Of a stretch of DNA of 34,845 nt, positions 6,692 to 19,344 are shown piece after piece (the stretch's first letter is position 1; each line of letters begins with the position of its first letter). The stretch comes from Methylococcaceae bacterium (GTDB lineage Bacteria > Pseudomonadota > Gammaproteobacteria > Methylococcales > Methylomonadaceae): contig SPJM01000085.1 of NCBI GenBank assembly GCA_006844585.1, forward strand, positions 1 to 34,845, read 5' to 3'. The position numbers and the translations under genes were made by a program. Under the pieces are notes generated by a model. It was not told the origin of the DNA and searched no databases. It saw only the letters and a list, made by a program, of their open reading frames with translations.

Positions 6692-9600
6692 ATGACTCGA
6701 TTTTCTGAAACGGCTTATTTACCTAATCAAACTTCAGCACTCGCCAAAGGACCTTGGTTAATTCTCGCTCCACATCCCGACGATGAAAGCTTCGGCATGG
6801 GCGGAACATTATTATTGGCTAAACAGCAAAATATCCGAGTCAATGTTATTTTCTTAACAGACGGGCGTTTAGGCGGTTCTTCGGAGTCGGATTTGACCAC
6901 CACTCGTGAAGCGGAAGCCCAACAAGCTTGTCATTTACTTGGAATTGACAAACCGCATTTTTGGCGCGAACCGGATCGCGGTTTATCAACCTCGCAACAT
7001 CTAATTGATAAACTGTCTTCATTTATTCAAACGTTTCAACCGGCGGCTGTTTTTTTTCCTTCGCCTCTGGAGCCGCACCCCGATCATCGCGCTACGTCAG
7101 TTATAGCCTGGGAAGCATTGCGAAAATTAAACTTCCCGGCTCAAGCAATCAGTTACGATATATCCGTTCAAAGCCACACCAACCAATTAATTGACATCAG
7201 TGAAACAATCGAGCAAAAACAACAGCTCATGTCTTGCTATGCCAGTCAATTATCGGAAAATCATTATATTGATCGCATTGTCGGCTTAAATAAAGCTCGA
7301 GCCTGGTCGTTGCCGTTATCCGTCAGTCATGCGGAAGCTTTTTTTCTTTGGCCTGCGGAAAACCGACCGCTTAATGCAATGTTGCTGGATATTTCCGCCG
7401 CCCAAAGCTCACCATCGGCATTATCTGAACAATTGCCGCTGATTTCGGTAATCACCCGCACCCAAAACCGACCGGAATTATTGCGTGAAGCGATTCGTTC
7501 AGTTGGCGGTCAAACTTATCCTAATATTGAATTAATCGTAGTCAATGACGGCGGGGTCAATTGTGAAAACATCGTTCAACAAGAAGCGAGCGGTCATATT
7601 CAAAGTTTTCAATATCATCATTTCGAACAACAACAAGGACGCAGCCAGGCAGCCAACCAGGGGTTATCATTAAGCCAAGGGGAATATTTAATATTTTTGG
7701 ATGACGACGATTGGTTAGAATATGAACATATTCAACAATTATATAATGCTATTCAATCATCATCTGATGCTCAAGCCGCCTATTCCGCCACCCAATGCTT
7801 TGATGACCAAAAACAAGCGCTTCCTGATCAATTCGCCTATCCATTTGACGCCAACCGCTTAATTGTCGGCAATTTCATCCCGATCCATTCGGTGTTATTT
7901 TCCCGAGCTTTATTAGATCAGGGTTGCCGTTTCGATGAAACATTAGACGTTTATGAAGACTGGGATTTTTGGATACAAGCATCACGCATTACCAATTTTC
8001 TATTCGTCAACCAATTCACTGCTAATTACCGTATCGGCGGACAATCCGGCTTCGGCGTTAACTTCAATCAAGACAAGGCTGAGCAGAACAGTATAATCAT
8101 TTTTCGAAAATGGTTTGCGCAATTATCTGATGATGATTTGTTGCTGATCACCCACCAAGTCAGAGAGCACCAAAACGCAATCCAGCAACTCAATGAAAAT
8201 AACAAACTACTACAAGATCTCACTAATCAACTTGAAAAAAGCAATAACGCATCCAAGCAAAAAGAAAATAAAATACAGCAATTAGAATTAAACATTGCCG
8301 AAAAGAAACGAGAAGCTCTTGAACAACAATCCCAGATTCAGCATCTTGAATCTAATCTGAACACTCAAAACGAAAAAATCATTGAGTTTAATACCATTAC
8401 CCATCAATACGCTGAAAAAGTTGAACATCTCAATCAACAAATCAGACATTTAGAACAAGATTTACGTTCGCATAAAGATCAATTGATGCAGATCTTTAAT
8501 AGCCGCTCGTGGCATATTACTAAACCCTTACGCGCCATCAATCGGATTTCACCGATCAAATGGCTGCGCGAACTGATATATCATTTCTTCCGCAAAATTT
8601 GGCTGGCTATACCGGTTTCCTTATCGCAAAAACAAAGTTTCAAGCAGCGCTTATTTAACCATGCACCTGTAATTTTCAAACACAGCAAAGCCTATAAGGA
8701 CTGGCATGCCTTTGAAAATCCTACTGAATACCCATCTGCGCCGTTGGCAGTCGAAAACGCGCCGACAACACAATCCTCCGCCAATCAAACAGAAGAAATT
8801 TACAACGCTTATTTACGGACAGCTCACAACCAAACCATATCTGAGTTTGTCGATTATGCCGAAAACAACGCCAATCTATCCGCATCAGCTATCAAATTCA
8901 TTGCCTTTTATTTGCCGCAGTTTCACCCTATAGATGAAAATGATCGGGAATGGGGAAAAGGCTTTACCGAATGGACCAATGTTTCGAAAGCAACCCCGCA
9001 ATATACAGGACATTATCAGCCGCGTTTACCTGGTGAATTAGGCTTCTATGATTTACGTCTTAAAGAAATCCAGCAGCGTCAAATTGAATTAGCCAAGAAT
9101 TATGGTTTACATGGATTTTGTTACCATTATTACTGGTTCAACGGCAAAAAAGTACTGGATAAGCCTTTACAGCAAATATTGGATGATTCATCGTTGGACT
9201 TCCCTTTTTGTATTTGCTGGGCTAATGAAAACTGGACCCGTCGCTGGGATGGGGGCGAAGATGAAATCATTCTGGCGCAGAAACATTCGCCGGAAGATGA
9301 TTTGCACTTTATCCAAGATCTAGATCCTATCATACGCGATCCACGCTATATCCGTATCGACGGTAAACCCTTAGTTATTGTATATCGCCCTGAGTTGTTG
9401 CCTGATCCCAAACTGACCGCCCAACGCTGGCGACAATACACTCAGCAAAACGGCATCGGCGATTTATTCATTGTCGCTGCCGCAACTTTCGGTTTCGATG
9501 ATTATCAGCGCATAGGCTACGATGGTTTGGTGCAGTTTCCGCCGCATAATATCGGCGCCAAGGAGATATCCGATCAAGTCGCTTTATCAAACGCCAATTT

Positions 9601-11974
9601 CCACGGTCATATATTCGATTATCGAGACTATGCGCAACAGGCCTTAAAGAAGCTAAAAGGTAAAACTCACACTTTTCCATGTGTGATGATGGATTGGGAT
9701 AATGAAGCGCGTAAACCCGGCAGAGGTCATATATTTCACCATTGCTCACCGCAAAACTATCAACAATGGCTAAACGACTGCGCAGATTATGTGCTGGAAA
9801 ATAATACCGAGCAGGAACAGTTTGTCTTTATCAATGCCTGGAACGAATGGGCCGAAGGGACTTATCTGGAGCCGGATAGACGGTATGGTTATGCTTATTT
9901 AGATGCTACCCGGGAAGTGTTGCTCAAACATTTAAATCAACCTGAGCAGACACGAAAAATTATCCTGGTTACCCATGATGCGCATCCGATGGGTGCTCAA
10001 TATCTGGTGCTGAACCTGGCCAGAACATTAAGCGCTGAATTCAATTTTGAAGTCGCCTTGATTACATTGGGCGAAGGCGCGTTAATTTTAGATTATCTCA
10101 ACTGCGCCAAACTTCATAATCTCTCGAATATAGCCCCTGACAGCGAACAAGCGCGGGCAGTAGCGGAACAACTGGCGGCTGACGGCTACCCATCAGCTAT
10201 CGTTAACAGCACGGCATCCGGCTTGTTTTTAAAAACCTTGCATGATGTCGGCATCCATTGCATTTCTTTAGTTCATGAATTGCCTGGCATCGTCGAATCA
10301 TACAATCTCTATCAACACGCCGAAACAATAGCCGATTACGCCCAGGCAGTCATTTTTCCTGACCGCTATGTTTCTGATCGTTTCGTCAGTAAAGATAATC
10401 TTTCCGAACAACAGTTGAAAATTCGCACTCAAGGATTATACAAACTTAATGCCTTGAAAAACGATATTGCTACAGCGCGTAGACAGTTACGCAGTGAATT
10501 GAATTTGTCTGAAGAAGCCAAAATTGTTCTCGGCGTCGGCTATGCCGATTTCAGAAAAGGCATCGATTTATTCGTTGAAATAGCTTTATCGGTCGGCGCA
10601 CAAACAGGTGATTGTTATTTTGTCTGGCTGGGAGACTGGGATAATCAAGTCAAGCTAGAAGTTGAAAAACAACTGGAAAACCGACCTTTTGCAGACCGCC
10701 TGATATTCCCAGGCCGTCGTTCGGATACCGACGCATTTTACGCCGGGGCCGACCTACTGGCGTTGACCTCACGGGAAGACCCGTTTCCTTCAGTGATGAT
10801 GGAATCATTAAATGTCGGCGTTCCTATTGTCGGCTTTGAAAACGTAGGCGGCAGCGAAACCTTGTTGAAACAAGGCTGCGGCATTTTGGTTCCATTTGAA
10901 GATTGTCAGGCATTCAGCCATGCGGTATTGGAACTATTGGCCGATTCACCCAAAAGACAACAATTAGGATCAACAGGTCGGCAAATAATCGATGAACAGT
11001 TTTCCTTCCGTCATTATATTTTTGACTTGCTGGCCTACCTCGACATCCCCTTGCCGCGCGTCTCCGCCATCGTGCCGAATTATAACTATGCGCATTATCT
11101 AAAACAGCGAATAGACTCAGTTCTTGATCAATCCTATCCGCTTTACGAGTTGATTGTGATTGATGATGCTTCCAGCGATAACAGCGTTGAAGTGATTGAA
11201 AGTTGTTTTCAGCAAACCACTATCGACACTCGATTGGTCAAAAACACCCAAAATTCCGGTTCGGTATTCAAACAATGGCAAAAAGCGGCCGAACTTGCGC
11301 AAGGCGATATAATCTGGATTGCCGAAGCCGACGATGATGCAGATCCGCAATTTATCAATTCATTAATGCCTGCTTTTAATGACCCGGAGACGGTTCTGGC
11401 TTACTGTCAATCCGAACAAATCGATGAACAAGGCCAAGTCACTGAATCCGATTATTTAGCTTATACCCAACACATTAATAATCAAAAATGGCTGCAAGAT
11501 TATCGTAATCAGGGTAAGGAAGAAATCATAAACGCCTTGGCGATTAAAAACACCATCCCCAACGCCAGCGCAGTTTTGTTCCGCAAAGATGCATTTGCTG
11601 AATCCATGCAACAATGCCGCGCCGATCTGGATAAGCTGAATATCGCCGGCGATTGGCTGATTTATTGCGCCTTATTGCAACAAGGAAAAATCAGTTATTG
11701 CGCTGAATCATTAAATAAACACCGCCGTCACCAGCAAAGCGTGACGATCTCTTCTTCATCTCATCTACGTCATTTGGCGGAAGTGATCTGGATGCAAAGA
11801 TGGATAACGGAACAGATCGATCTGCCTGCAAAAGCGCGGAAACTAGCTGATCAATACGTTCAAACGCTATATCAACAATTTCAACTGGATAAAGGCGGGG
11901 TAACGGATTGGCGGAAAAATGCAGAATTGGAAGCGCAATTAAATGCATTATCGAACACAACAGTAGGCGTATAA
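6692..11974 (+). CDS. giant multidomain glycan protein: PIG-L/LmbE deacetylase, GT2, coiled coil, WbsX-like, GT4, GT2
   Basis: This single 1760-aa reading frame joins at least five catalytic-type domains. Residues about 20-220 are a PIG-L/LmbE zinc deacetylase (APHPDDE at 26-32, HPDH at 129-132), expected to N-deacetylate a sugar. Residues about 250-480 are a GT2 domain with LDDDDW (DXD acids at 337-340). About 490-602 is a Gln/Glu/Asn-rich coiled coil. About 735-1070 is a WbsX/GH99-like domain (FIAFYLPQFHP, EWTNVSKA, WANENWTRRW, NAWNEWAEG), common in O-antigen loci. About 1089-1445 is a GT4 domain (GYADFRKGIDLF near 1280, EDPFPSVMMESL near 1361). About 1456-1740 is a second GT2 (AIVPNYNYAHYL, AEADDDADP). 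No signal peptide or clear membrane span is seen, so it is probably cytoplasmic. The frame is unbroken, so this is a true fusion. Donors and acceptors are unknown. Confidence 0.88.
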   Translation: MTRFSETAYLPNQTSALAKGPWLILAPHPDDESFGMGGTLLLAKQQNIRVNVIFLTDGRLGGSSESDLTTTREAEAQQACHLLGIDKPHFWREPDRGLSTSQHLIDKLSSFIQTFQPAAVFFPSPLEPHPDHRATSVIAWEALRKLNFPAQAISYDISVQSHTNQLIDISETIEQKQQLMSCYASQLSENHYIDRIVGLNKARAWSLPLSVSHAEAFFLWPAENRPLNAMLLDISAAQSSPSALSEQLPLISVITRTQNRPELLREAIRSVGGQTYPNIELIVVNDGGVNCENIVQQEASGHIQSFQYHHFEQQQGRSQAANQGLSLSQGEYLIFLDDDDWLEYEHIQQLYNAIQSSSDAQAAYSATQCFDDQKQALPDQFAYPFDANRLIVGNFIPIHSVLFSRALLDQGCRFDETLDVYEDWDFWIQASRITNFLFVNQFTANYRIGGQSGFGVNFNQDKAEQNSIIIFRKWFAQLSDDDLLLITHQVREHQNAIQQLNENNKLLQDLTNQLEKSNNASKQKENKIQQLELNIAEKKREALEQQSQIQHLESNLNTQNEKIIEFNTITHQYAEKVEHLNQQIRHLEQDLRSHKDQLMQIFNSRSWHITKPLRAINRISPIKWLRELIYHFFRKIWLAIPVSLSQKQSFKQRLFNHAPVIFKHSKAYKDWHAFENPTEYPSAPLAVENAPTTQSSANQTEEIYNAYLRTAHNQTISEFVDYAENNANLSASAIKFIAFYLPQFHPIDENDREWGKGFTEWTNVSKATPQYTGHYQPRLPGELGFYDLRLKEIQQRQIELAKNYGLHGFCYHYYWFNGKKVLDKPLQQILDDSSLDFPFCICWANENWTRRWDGGEDEIILAQKHSPEDDLHFIQDLDPIIRDPRYIRIDGKPLVIVYRPELLPDPKLTAQRWRQYTQQNGIGDLFIVAAATFGFDDYQRIGYDGLVQFPPHNIGAKEISDQVALSNANFHGHIFDYRDYAQQALKKLKGKTHTFPCVMMDWDNEARKPGRGHIFHHCSPQNYQQWLNDCADYVLENNTEQEQFVFINAWNEWAEGTYLEPDRRYGYAYLDATREVLLKHLNQPEQTRKIILVTHDAHPMGAQYLVLNLARTLSAEFNFEVALITLGEGALILDYLNCAKLHNLSNIAPDSEQARAVAEQLAADGYPSAIVNSTASGLFLKTLHDVGIHCISLVHELPGIVESYNLYQHAETIADYAQAVIFPDRYVSDRFVSKDNLSEQQLKIRTQGLYKLNALKNDIATARRQLRSELNLSEEAKIVLGVGYADFRKGIDLFVEIALSVGAQTGDCYFVWLGDWDNQVKLEVEKQLENRPFADRLIFPGRRSDTDAFYAGADLLALTSREDPFPSVMMESLNVGVPIVGFENVGGSETLLKQGCGILVPFEDCQAFSHAVLELLADSPKRQQLGSTGRQIIDEQFSFRHYIFDLLAYLDIPLPRVSAIVPNYNYAHYLKQRIDSVLDQSYPLYELIVIDDASSDNSVEVIESCFQQTTIDTRLVKNTQNSGSVFKQWQKAAELAQGDIIWIAEADDDADPQFINSLMPAFNDPETVLAYCQSEQIDEQGQVTESDYLAYTQHINNQKWLQDYRNQGKEEIINALAIKNTIPNASAVLFRKDAFAESMQQCRADLDKLNIAGDWLIYCALLQQGKISYCAESLNKHRRHQQSVTISSSSHLRHLAEVIWMQRWITEQIDLPAKARKLADQYVQTLYQQFQLDKGGVTDWRKNAELEAQLNALSNTTVGV

Positions 11975-16228: not shown

Positions 16229-18742
16229 CTAACAAACCCCCAAATATTCATTAATCTCACCCGCCGGGCAAGGCCTGTTAATCCAAAACCCTTGAAATTT
16301 CAAACAATCATTATTTCGCAATAACTCGAACTGACGGCGGTTTTCCACTCCTTCGGCGACAATATCCAAACCCAGGTTTTTGCCCATCGTAATAATCGTT
16401 TTCACCAACACATGATCGTCTTGGTTGTTCAACATATCGCGCACAAATAAACGATCTATTTTCAATTGCGATAAATTGAAACGCTTCAAATAACTCAAAG
16501 AAGAATAACCGGTGCCGAAATCATCCATAGATAACTTAACCCCGTTATTTTTCAAGGCATTAATCTTATTAATCGTATCGCTATCGTTGATTAAGGTTGA
16601 TTCAGTCAACTCCAACATTAAACCGTCGCAATCGACCTTATATTTCCGGATAGCCGCTTTCAAGTTATCAACAAAGCTCGGCTTTTTAAACTGAATGGCG
16701 CTTATATTCAAAGAAAGCGTCAAATGCCGGGTTTTTTCGCTGGCCTGCCAACACTGTAATTGTTTCAAACCGCTGTTAATCACCCACTCGCCTATGTTTA
16801 ATAAAATACCGCTCTGCTCGGCCACCTCCAGAAAAAGATCCGGCCCGATCAAGCCTTTTTTGGGATGCTGCCAGCGAATCAAAGCCTCCATGCCAACAAC
16901 TTGATGATGATCATCAACCTGCACCTGATAAAACAATTTGAATTGTTTTTTTTCGATCGCCTGACGCAATTCTTTTTCAATCTGCAAACGCTCCATCACC
17001 GCTTTCTGCATAGCCGGATCAAAAAAACGCAGCGTATTGCGACCGGCAAATTTAGCTTCATACATCGCGGTGTCGGCGCGCTTTAAAATGTCCTCCGCCC
17101 GTTGATATTGATCTGTAAACATGCAAACCCCGATGCTGGAAGAACTATAAAAACTCAGACCATTGATTAAATACGGTTTGGACAAAGCCGACAAAACCTT
17201 ATCTCCCAAGCGTTGCACCACCGCCGTGGCGACGCCCTCATTTTCCTCTAATTGTTTGAGCATCACCACAAACTCATCGCCGCCCAAACGCGCTACGGTA
17301 TCATTAGTTCGAACGCATAAAGCAATGCGTTCGGCCGCTTCCACTAATAATGAATCACCACAATCATGCCCGTAGGTATCGTTAATCGACTTAAAATTAT
17401 CCAAATCGATAAATAATAATGCGGCATAACCTTTATCGCGCTGACAATCCGCCAAAGCCTGTTTCAAACGCTCTAAAAATAAACGTCGATTAGGCAATTT
17501 CGTTAAAGGATCATAAAAAGCCAATTCATTAATTTCCCGCTCAGCCGCTTTGCGATTACTGATATCCTCTTTTATCGCAATATAGTGCAGAATACGGCCT
17601 TTTTGATCAGTGATAGGCGTTATCGTCATATGCTCATCATATAATGAACCGTCTTTCCGCTTATTGACCAAATCGCCTTTCCAAACCTGATTGGACTGTA
17701 TGGTTTGCCACATCTCCCTATAAAAGGATTGCTCATGAATCCCGGAAAAAATCAGCTGTTTCGGCTTTTTACCTAATATTTCATCATGACTGTAGCCGGT
17801 TAATACTGAAAAAGCCGGATTTGACCATTCGATCTTACCTTCCGGACTAGCGATAATCACTGCATTAGCGGTCGCTTCCAAAGCTTTTTGCAAGGTTAAT
17901 AGCTTCTGCTCATTTTGTTTGCGTTCGGAAATATCGACATGGGTGCCGATCAAACGTCGAGGACTCACCGGTTCGCCCTGCTGGTTGGTCGCGATAGACC
18001 CTCTGGAAAGAATATCCACCCAAAAGCCGTCCTTATGCAGCATCCGAAACTCGACTTCAAACTTATCGGTTTTTCCAGCCAAATACTTCTCAGCCGCTAG
18101 CAAACTGATTTTTTGATCTTTCGGGTGGACCAACTCATACCAGGTATCCAAATGCGCCCGCAGCGGTTCATCCGCATCAAAACCCAACATAGATTTCCAA
18201 CGCGGCGAATAAAACACATAATTGTTTTCGATATTCCAATCCCAATAACCGTCATTGGCTCCTTGCAAAGCCCAAAAAAGACGGCTGTTGCTGATGGAAA
18301 TCTGCTGAAGATTCTTCTTGTATTGGGTTATATCAAACAATGTGCCGATGACGCTCCGCTTGCCGTCGATATCTGGCAACAACAACAAACAAACCTCAAC
18401 GATAATCTGACGCAACTCTTTAGATAATAAGCGACATTCAAAACGGATCGGCGCATGTTGCTGAAAAGTTTTTTCAAAATGACTTGCCGCCAGCGCCCGG
18501 TCTCTAAAATCAAAATAATCCAGCCAAAAACTGTTTTGCGCTTGCCGCGAAGAAATACCGGTATAGCTTTCCCAGGTTTCATTAAGAAAAACAAACTCGC
18601 CTTGCAGATTCAACTGAAAAACCACCTGATTCAAATTATTCACCAAGCTGCGATATTTTTCCTCGGAACTGCGCAAGCTTTCAATCAGTTTTAAATTTAA
18701 TTGAACATCCAGTTCTTCTTTATACAGACGTTTATCACACAT
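16229..18742 (-). CDS. PAS-PAS-PAS-GGDEF-EAL cyclic-di-GMP signalling protein
   Basis: This 837-aa protein probably makes and/or degrades cyclic di-GMP. From the N-terminus there are three PAS-type sensor domains (about 22-140, 150-275 and 282-402), the latter two with PAC-like ends. A GGDEF diguanylate cyclase domain follows (about 405-570), with an intact GGDEF motif at 487-491 and an RxxD inhibitory site (RTND) at 478-481. The EAL phosphodiesterase domain (about 585-830) has EAL at 619-621, ELTES, DDFGTGYSSL, KIDRLFV and AEGVE, so both halves look catalytically complete. No transmembrane segment or signal peptide is seen, so it is probably cytoplasmic. It lies 2 nt downstream of the isochorismatase-fold gene and must share its transcript. 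Which activity dominates cannot be told from sequence. Confidence 0.92.
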   Translation of the reverse strand: MCDKRLYKEELDVQLNLKLIESLRSSEEKYRSLVNNLNQVVFQLNLQGEFVFLNETWESYTGISSRQAQNSFWLDYFDFRDRALAASHFEKTFQQHAPIRFECRLLSKELRQIIVEVCLLLLPDIDGKRSVIGTLFDITQYKKNLQQISISNSRLFWALQGANDGYWDWNIENNYVFYSPRWKSMLGFDADEPLRAHLDTWYELVHPKDQKISLLAAEKYLAGKTDKFEVEFRMLHKDGFWVDILSRGSIATNQQGEPVSPRRLIGTHVDISERKQNEQKLLTLQKALEATANAVIIASPEGKIEWSNPAFSVLTGYSHDEILGKKPKQLIFSGIHEQSFYREMWQTIQSNQVWKGDLVNKRKDGSLYDEHMTITPITDQKGRILHYIAIKEDISNRKAAEREINELAFYDPLTKLPNRRLFLERLKQALADCQRDKGYAALLFIDLDNFKSINDTYGHDCGDSLLVEAAERIALCVRTNDTVARLGGDEFVVMLKQLEENEGVATAVVQRLGDKVLSALSKPYLINGLSFYSSSSIGVCMFTDQYQRAEDILKRADTAMYEAKFAGRNTLRFFDPAMQKAVMERLQIEKELRQAIEKKQFKLFYQVQVDDHHQVVGMEALIRWQHPKKGLIGPDLFLEVAEQSGILLNIGEWVINSGLKQLQCWQASEKTRHLTLSLNISAIQFKKPSFVDNLKAAIRKYKVDCDGLMLELTESTLINDSDTINKINALKNNGVKLSMDDFGTGYSSLSYLKRFNLSQLKIDRLFVRDMLNNQDDHVLVKTIITMGKNLGLDIVAEGVENRRQFELLRNNDCLKFQGFWINRPCPAGEINEYLGVC

Positions 18743-18744
18743 GC

Positions 18745-19344
18745 CTAACTCAACTCAGCCAACAATTGCCGACTCTTAAAAACCTTTGCATAAAGCGGAA
18801 AAATCTCTTTGCAATAATATTCTTGTTCAAAATGGCTGCGGCCGGCCGTACAATCTTCCAAAATAGAGACATGAAAACCCAAATCAAACGCCGTACGCCC
18901 CGTGGTATCAATGCAAATAGAAGTCACCGCCCCGGCTAAAATCACATCGCTAATGGAATACTGATTTAACAAATCCTGTAAAGAGGTATTGGAAAAAGCA
19001 TTCAATCCCCTTTTCCCCGGCACCTCAATAATCCGCTCACCGAACTGACTCAACTCGCTAACCGTTTGCGCGCCCACTGAACCTTTTTTAAAAGCCTCCA
19101 CCTCTTTAATCGTTTTTAGAATACCAACCGGATCAGTCAATTCCGCATAATTCTCGGTAAAAATGATCGGCGTGTTGATGAGAAGAACGCTGCTGTTTTG
19201 CAACTGCTCAATTAAGTTAATGCTATTTTGCAATACGCTTTGAACGGCATCGCTGCTTTCCAAGGCATAATGCAAGACGCCATCCGGCATAAAATAATCA
19301 TTTTGAAAACCAATAAAAATAACGGCAGTGGATTCAGCGCTCAT
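18745..19344 (-). CDS. isochorismatase-fold cysteine hydrolase homologue lacking the usual catalytic Asp
   Basis: This 199-aa protein belongs to the isochorismatase/nicotinamidase superfamily. The family Lys (K111 in VPGKRGLNAFS) and nucleophile Cys (C144 in AGAVTSICIDTT) are present, followed by the typical TGRTAFDLGFHV. At the N-terminus, however, the usual D-x-Q-N-D pattern reads FIGFQNDYF, so the position of the first, catalytic Asp is Gly12. It may therefore have altered chemistry, or bind a ligand without hydrolysing it. It is 2 nt upstream of the PAS-GGDEF-EAL gene, so a role as small-molecule sensor or modifier for that pathway is conceivable but unproven. The fold is well supported; the substrate is unknown. 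Confidence 0.83.
   Translation of the reverse strand: MSAESTAVIFIGFQNDYFMPDGVLHYALESSDAVQSVLQNSINLIEQLQNSSVLLINTPIIFTENYAELTDPVGILKTIKEVEAFKKGSVGAQTVSELSQFGERIIEVPGKRGLNAFSNTSLQDLLNQYSISDVILAGAVTSICIDTTGRTAFDLGFHVSILEDCTAGRSHFEQEYYCKEIFPLYAKVFKSRQLLAELS

Follow-up and report, generated by a model that had tools for sequence, protein, structure and literature searches.

H-NOX proteins are stand-alone sensors that act on a histidine kinase or on a cyclase/phosphodiesterase of cyclic di-GMP (c-di-GMP). In the available sections of the papers that describe them (PMC12329717; PMC8846402), both H-NOX, with HnoK or HaCE, and NosP, with partners of its own, appear as small separate sensors with varied outputs, the sensor gene lying beside that of the kinase in the described case. 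Isochorismatase-like cysteine hydrolases (e.g. BiuH, TrtA, RutB, and nicotinamidase) form the second point of comparison, and these carry an Asp-Lys-Cys triad. In biuret hydrolase, Asp36 of this triad cannot be replaced by other residues, while Arg alone can take the place of the Lys, at the cost of a 25-fold loss (PMC5806882, sections available to us), and the portion of the TrtA paper at hand describes the same triad (PMC7948467). Here, we analyze a locus with likenesses to both groups, located in a 34,845-nt stretch of a Methylococcaceae bacterium (assembly GCA_006844585.1, contig SPJM01000085.1; hereafter the window). Specifically, a gene for a 199-aa isochorismatase-fold protein, the putative sensor subunit (18745..19344), is followed after a gap of 2 nt (18743–18744) by a gene for an 837-aa PAS-PAS-PAS-GGDEF-EAL protein (16229..18742), both on the minus strand. 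We estimate at roughly 60% the probability that the small protein is an enzyme-derived sensor subunit, which docks on a helix of its partner and controls outputs that can be swapped.

Fold and score both place the small protein in PF00857 (Isochorismatase), with an E-value of 1.3e-33 and 116.9 bits against a Pfam curated cut-off of 27. This is its sole Pfam match, and the same scan finds no haem-binding HNOB/H-NOX domain. Its AlphaFold2 (AF2) model (pLDDT 91.0, pTM 0.89) has an isochorismatase fold, with PDB 3kl2, a putative isochorismatase from Streptomyces avermitilis, as the best match (Z 29.9, root-mean-square deviation 1.5, 196 residues aligned, 35% identity). Ordinary cysteine hydrolases come next (Z 22–26; 22–25 for BiuH, TrtA, RutB, and nicotinamidase). 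Like them, the small protein keeps the triad lysine and cysteine, i.e. Lys111 (codon 19012..19014, minus strand) and Cys144 (18913..18915, minus strand). Unlike them, it has no catalytic Asp and falls outside the triad-bearing enzymes: the corresponding position is Gly12 (19309..19311, minus strand), aligned with a Glu of 3kl2 and with the Asp of biuret hydrolase. A sequence-only reading of this DNA had pointed to the 2-nt spacing, the retained Lys111 and Cys144, and the Gly at the catalytic position, and all of these hold.

The Gly is also conserved well beyond this genome. It is present in all 34 members of the subfamily described below (hereafter Gly-type), whereas among ordinary homologues the 36 alignments that extend to the site show Asp in 29 and Glu in 7, never Gly, so it is no chance change; the ordinary set consists of 57 loci at 55 distinct places, and its other alignments stop short of the site. 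Asp16, Glu68, and Cys144 are likewise found in 34/34 members, while 32 members have Lys and 2 have Arg at position 111, which is exactly the freedom of the biuret hydrolase Lys, with the Asp gone. The nearest relatives in sequence are the group of 3kl2, also the nearest solved structure, which we call Glu-type and which differ from the Gly-type in having Glu at position 12, Asp at 115, and Asn at 142. Compared with six Glu-type proteins, the subfamily is fixed differently at positions 12, 17, 18, 29, 79, 115, 140, 142, 146, 169, 177, 178, 185, and 186. Among these, positions 12, 115, 140, 142, and 146 lie at or near triad residues in the sequence, which suggests that the pocket was remade rather than decayed.

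Members of the subfamily were sought with a profile made from six of them, picked solely by likeness to the small protein, in 369 genomes of the class, 398 of the phylum, 74 of one family, and 246 of a second phylum (that of locus L032), and with the window protein itself in 101 relatives. In these samples, which overlap one another, true members occur in 5/369, 9/398, 6/74, 16/246 (17 genes), and 2/101 genomes, respectively. Members score at least 280 bits in the class and phylum searches, where the next group reaches at most 166, and down to 232 bits in the second phylum. Altogether there are 34 distinct genes from at least two phyla, including four loci from a contig scan (two of them in genomes sampled for the second phylum) and one from a viral contig; near-copies among the 34 are L140 with L142–L144, L150–L152, and L031 with L138. 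On the tree of the small protein they form one group against the Glu-type with a support of 100/100. The ratio of nonsynonymous to synonymous substitutions is 0.03–0.27 in 7 of 8 close pairs (one pair was not computable), indicating that the protein is under purifying selection.

Among plasmids, a search returned 413 records, none with at least 60% identity, the best being a Rhizobium record at 36% that proved to be Glu-type. A phage collection gave 5 records at 25–32% identity, and of two viral-contig scans one found a single member and the other none. This viral member (L074:5001-5588, contig IMGVR_UViG_3300028595_000037) is Gly-type with 49% identity, and its contig carries genes for a phage-type helicase and a single-strand binding protein but no signalling partner that we could find; it may serve the virus as a decoy or be a sensor subunit that was captured. 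In another member, the small protein has a tail of ~110 residues made of short Lys/Pro/Ala/Gln-rich repeats (L079:3180-3517).

The pairing seen in the window recurs throughout the subfamily. A signalling gene directly adjoins the small gene in 33 of 34 loci vs none of the 55 ordinary isochorismatase places (Fisher's test, 1.3e-23, a value that the kinship of the loci makes too small). The Glu-type shares in this difference, with a signalling neighbour in none of its 7 control loci. Control flanks measured ~1.5 kb as a rule, with more in 6 loci and less at some contig ends, and partner detection succeeded in 13/13 short subfamily loci with each locus's own partner left out. The signalling gene directly follows the small gene in 31 of the 34 loci, and in 30 of these 31 the chosen partner start codon lies between −20 and +29 nt from the small-gene stop, with many 4-nt overlaps; for L149 the start is uncertain, at −29 or +64. 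The order is swapped in L080 and L085, where the kinase gene precedes the small gene and touches or overlaps it. Partners lack a single intact reading frame in the records of L075, L080, and L085, and that of L077 runs off its contig. Both swapped-order loci thus have a broken kinase frame, through an in-frame stop in L080 (5772-5774) and a frame change in L085, and this may reflect real decay or sequencing error. Directly upstream of the L080 kinase is a gene for an HTH_17 helix-turn-helix fused to a receiver domain (L080:4669-5274; domains tested in L080), with similar open reading frames (ORFs) in L085 and L086, and its product is the likely cognate regulator of the kinase in the swapped-order loci. 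Neighbour clustering, with antisense shadows of the small gene disregarded, found no third gene family common to more than 5 of 28 non-redundant loci.

An adjoining histidine kinase or GGDEF/EAL gene is also the pairing feature of H-NOX sensors, and the partners of the Gly-type cover both kinds. Of 33 partners, 26 are histidine kinases, most of them with a receiver domain, 4 are GGDEF-EAL proteins (window, L075, L076, and L082), 2 are Ser/Thr kinases (L031 and L138, 91% identical), and 1, in L139, is a Ser/Thr kinase joined to a histidine kinase. These assignments come from Pfam runs on 27 of the 33; among the others, L142, L143, L144, L151, and L152 are near-copies of scanned partners and L085 was assigned by similarity, while for L075 the N-terminal frame alone was scanned (PAS), its GGDEF and EAL sequence continuing in broken frames. 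The kinase loci L029 and L078 also have an NtrC-type sigma-54 response regulator. The sequence-only reading had asked whether the gene pairs repeatedly with GGDEF/EAL genes, or only here, and had proposed a sensory module wired to c-di-GMP turnover. The union of a changed isochorismatase homologue with a signalling protein is well supported and extends to two phyla, but the c-di-GMP wiring was too narrow, as GGDEF-EAL proteins make up only 4/33 partners and histidine kinases most of the rest.

The partner in the window has PAS regions at residues 28–82 (18497..18661), 176–259 (17966..18217), and 293–395 (17558..17866), a GGDEF domain at 408–569 (17036..17521; PF00990, 174.6 bits), and an EAL domain at 590–824 (16271..16975; PF00563, 224.6 bits), all on the minus strand. 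The GGDEF domain has an intact GGDEF at 487 and RTND (RxxD) at 478, and the EAL domain has EAL at 619, DDFGTG at 740, and KID at 761. Given these signatures, which we take to mark active domains, both diguanylate cyclase and c-di-GMP phosphodiesterase activity look possible. PAS cannot be the common target of the small protein, because Pfam recognises neither PAS nor any other sensor domain in the Ser/Thr-kinase partners.

The common denominator of the partners is instead a 15-residue helix. Alignment of 17 partner N-termini yielded a segment of this length, marked by a central Gln and a Leu-hydrophobic-Glu-x-Leu end, ahead of the first PAS or kinase part; in the window it occupies partner residues 9–23 (18674..18718, minus strand). 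A matrix built from the 17 gave more than 25 bits for the 16 of these partners that the scanned set contained (the window lay outside this set) and for the L031 Ser/Thr kinase, compared with 12.5 for the best of the other 666 ORFs. The L031 match (32.5 bits) is independent of the matrix and sits at the C-terminus, with 6 residues left after it. In each leave-one-out round, the ORFs reaching the score of the left-out partner were no more numerous than the partners. The window helix scores 29.1 bits with the 17-partner matrix and 23.7 bits with the window left out.

Related proteins that lack the small gene do not share this segment. In the window's genome, 23 other PAS/GGDEF/EAL loci score at most 14.2 bits, vs 22.0 for the partner itself by a matrix without the window, and the 8 nearest Ser/Thr kinases with no small gene in the locus at most 8.0 bits, vs 17.3, 30.6, and 30.6 bits for the 3 Ser/Thr kinases that have one. 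Its absence from these paralogues and kinase relatives means that the helix tracks the presence of the small protein and not that of PAS, GGDEF, or kinase domains. It reaches at least 17 bits in 28/33 partners overall and in 10/15 of the second phylum, including L139. Its place varies with the output, i.e. N-terminal in GGDEF-EAL and histidine-kinase partners, C-terminal in Ser/Thr kinases, and between the two kinase parts in L139. Judged from these sequences, the helix is a candidate docking site for the small protein. When the L082 pair was modelled with AF2 as a tethered chain, this segment formed part of one long helix that enters the PAS domain (chain residues 208–238; pLDDT of the outer block 64–74).

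From these results we propose that a cysteine hydrolase with the isochorismatase fold gave rise to a cytosolic sensor subunit that stands alone. The pocket of this subunit would have been retooled by fixing the general base Asp/Glu as Gly while retaining the nucleophile Cys144 and Lys/Arg111, and from this combination ligand binding with little or no turnover would be expected. The pocket, whose details are those of a predicted fold, may hold a small ligand of amide or carbonyl type, perhaps trapped as a covalent adduct, and would turn it over very slowly or not at all. Co-produced with its partner, the subunit would dock on the conserved helix, and occupancy of the pocket would alter partner output. 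In the window this output would be the synthesis of c-di-GMP by the cyclase domain, its breakdown by the phosphodiesterase domain, or both; the direction and the sign of the control are inferred. Elsewhere, the same subunit-helix unit would be plugged into histidine kinases and Ser/Thr kinases. The subunit probably works like H-NOX without being H-NOX, as it has an isochorismatase fold with a modified triad, whereas H-NOX binds nitric oxide via haem and NosP is a FIST protein. Ser/Thr-kinase partners and a 15-residue helix also find no mention for H-NOX or NosP in the available sections of PMC12329717 and PMC8846402. More tentatively, and with some doubt, the subfamily may represent a new class of bacterial chemoreceptor, in which an amidohydrolase-type enzyme became a detachable receptor by losing its general base. 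Such a receptor would recognise its own adaptor helix and, through this helix, would have been plugged into three or more output chemistries unrelated to one another (c-di-GMP turnover, His-Asp phosphorelay, and Ser/Thr phosphorylation), possibly reporting its ligand by a covalent adduct trapped on Cys144.

Several observations weigh against an enzyme-derived sensor subunit. One of the 34 copies, on the phage-like L074 contig, has no partner in view, and the helix is weak in 5/33 partners from two lineages (2–3 bits in L147 and L149; 6–8 bits in L150–L152). The tethered model of the L082 pair (pTM 0.58) shows no confident docking, and the helix might simply serve dimerisation. Outputs cluster by type on the small-protein tree, where only 5 changes are needed, and so they have been swapped but seldom. 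Lastly, an invariant Cys144 with Lys111 would fit an active enzyme too, in which Glu29 or Glu68 might replace the Asp.

This last point underlies the main rival explanation, i.e. that the small protein is still an enzyme, with Glu29 (19258..19260, minus strand) or Glu68 (19141..19143, minus strand) as its base, and makes or removes a small molecule read by the sensor domain of the partner. The retention of Cys144 and Lys/Arg111 and the invariance of Asp16 and Glu68 agree with it, and the Glu-type relatives indicate that position 12 tolerates change. Asp16 and Glu68 are not subfamily-specific replacements, however, because both are equally invariant in those relatives. Glu29 is specific (33/34 members, vs Lys or Gln in six Glu-type proteins) and thus a possible surrogate acid, judging from the alignment. 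The irreplaceable Asp36 of biuret hydrolase (PMC5806882, as above) argues otherwise, and so do the Ser/Thr-kinase partners, which have the shared helix yet no recognised sensor domain, and this speaks for physical contact. We consider a surviving enzyme unlikely.

A redox or electrophile sensor is less probable still. Here Cys144, activated by Lys111 and freed from catalysis, would be oxidised or alkylated and the change relayed to the partner, perhaps through a disulfide with Cys178. Cys144 is invariant, and Cys178 is a second, subfamily-specific cysteine found in 32/34 members, but it is Leu or Met in the GGDEF-EAL-linked L075 and L082. Moreover, Gln14, Asp16, Phe62, Glu68, and Thr141 are all strictly kept near the pocket, beyond what a thiol switch needs. 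It is very improbable that the small protein is a ligand-free pseudoenzyme that serves as a scaffold, holding the partner dimer or building a higher oligomer. Near-obligate pairing and a shared helix would suit this role, and higher oligomers are common among isochorismatase-fold enzymes, but the surroundings of the triad rank among the best-conserved parts of the protein, which is needless for a pure scaffold. Unrelated genes that are neighbours by chance can be rejected, given 33/34 loci vs 0/55 controls in two phyla and both gene orders.

Other genes near the pair offer weak hints of the ligand. Five loci have a gene for a transporter of the POT family (PF00854, by tests in L032 and L076), which lies downstream of the pair in four (L032:5644-7713, L140, L141, and L145) and upstream in L076 (4735-6120). 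Two loci from different families have, upstream of the small gene, a gene that fuses a carbamoyltransferase to a methyltransferase (PF16861 and PF05175, with PF02543 only in L077; L077:1793-5506, minus strand; L079:1-2343, plus strand), weakly hinting at a carbamoyl-type ligand. Elsewhere in the window, a gene on the plus strand (6692-11974) encodes a 1760-aa protein with PIG-L deacetylase, family-2 and group-1 glycosyltransferase, and WbsX domains, and adjoins other glycosyltransferase genes. Promoter and terminator scans found sites not usefully more numerous than in shuffled sequences.

Plants offer familiar cases, GID1 and D14/KAI2, in which a hydrolase fold has become a receptor for small molecules and acts on a partner protein. 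These differ from the bacterial subunit in that they are eukaryotic, have an unrelated alpha/beta-hydrolase fold, and act via protein degradation. No module of the kind proposed here came up among the papers that our searches of the open-licence literature listed, and the word "isochorismatase" appears nowhere in the main text of one census (PMC8846402). The inputs of most bacterial sensor proteins are unknown, and here a compact and widespread subunit tied to kinases and c-di-GMP enzymes comes with a predicted pocket, a putative docking helix, and a clean residue signature. If our reading is true, an enzyme fold would join the short list of stand-alone bacterial signalling sensors, and genes otherwise annotated as isochorismatase family hydrolases would be accounted for. 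The subfamily would also be a natural case of an enzyme turned receptor, with the docking helix as a direct route to further members.

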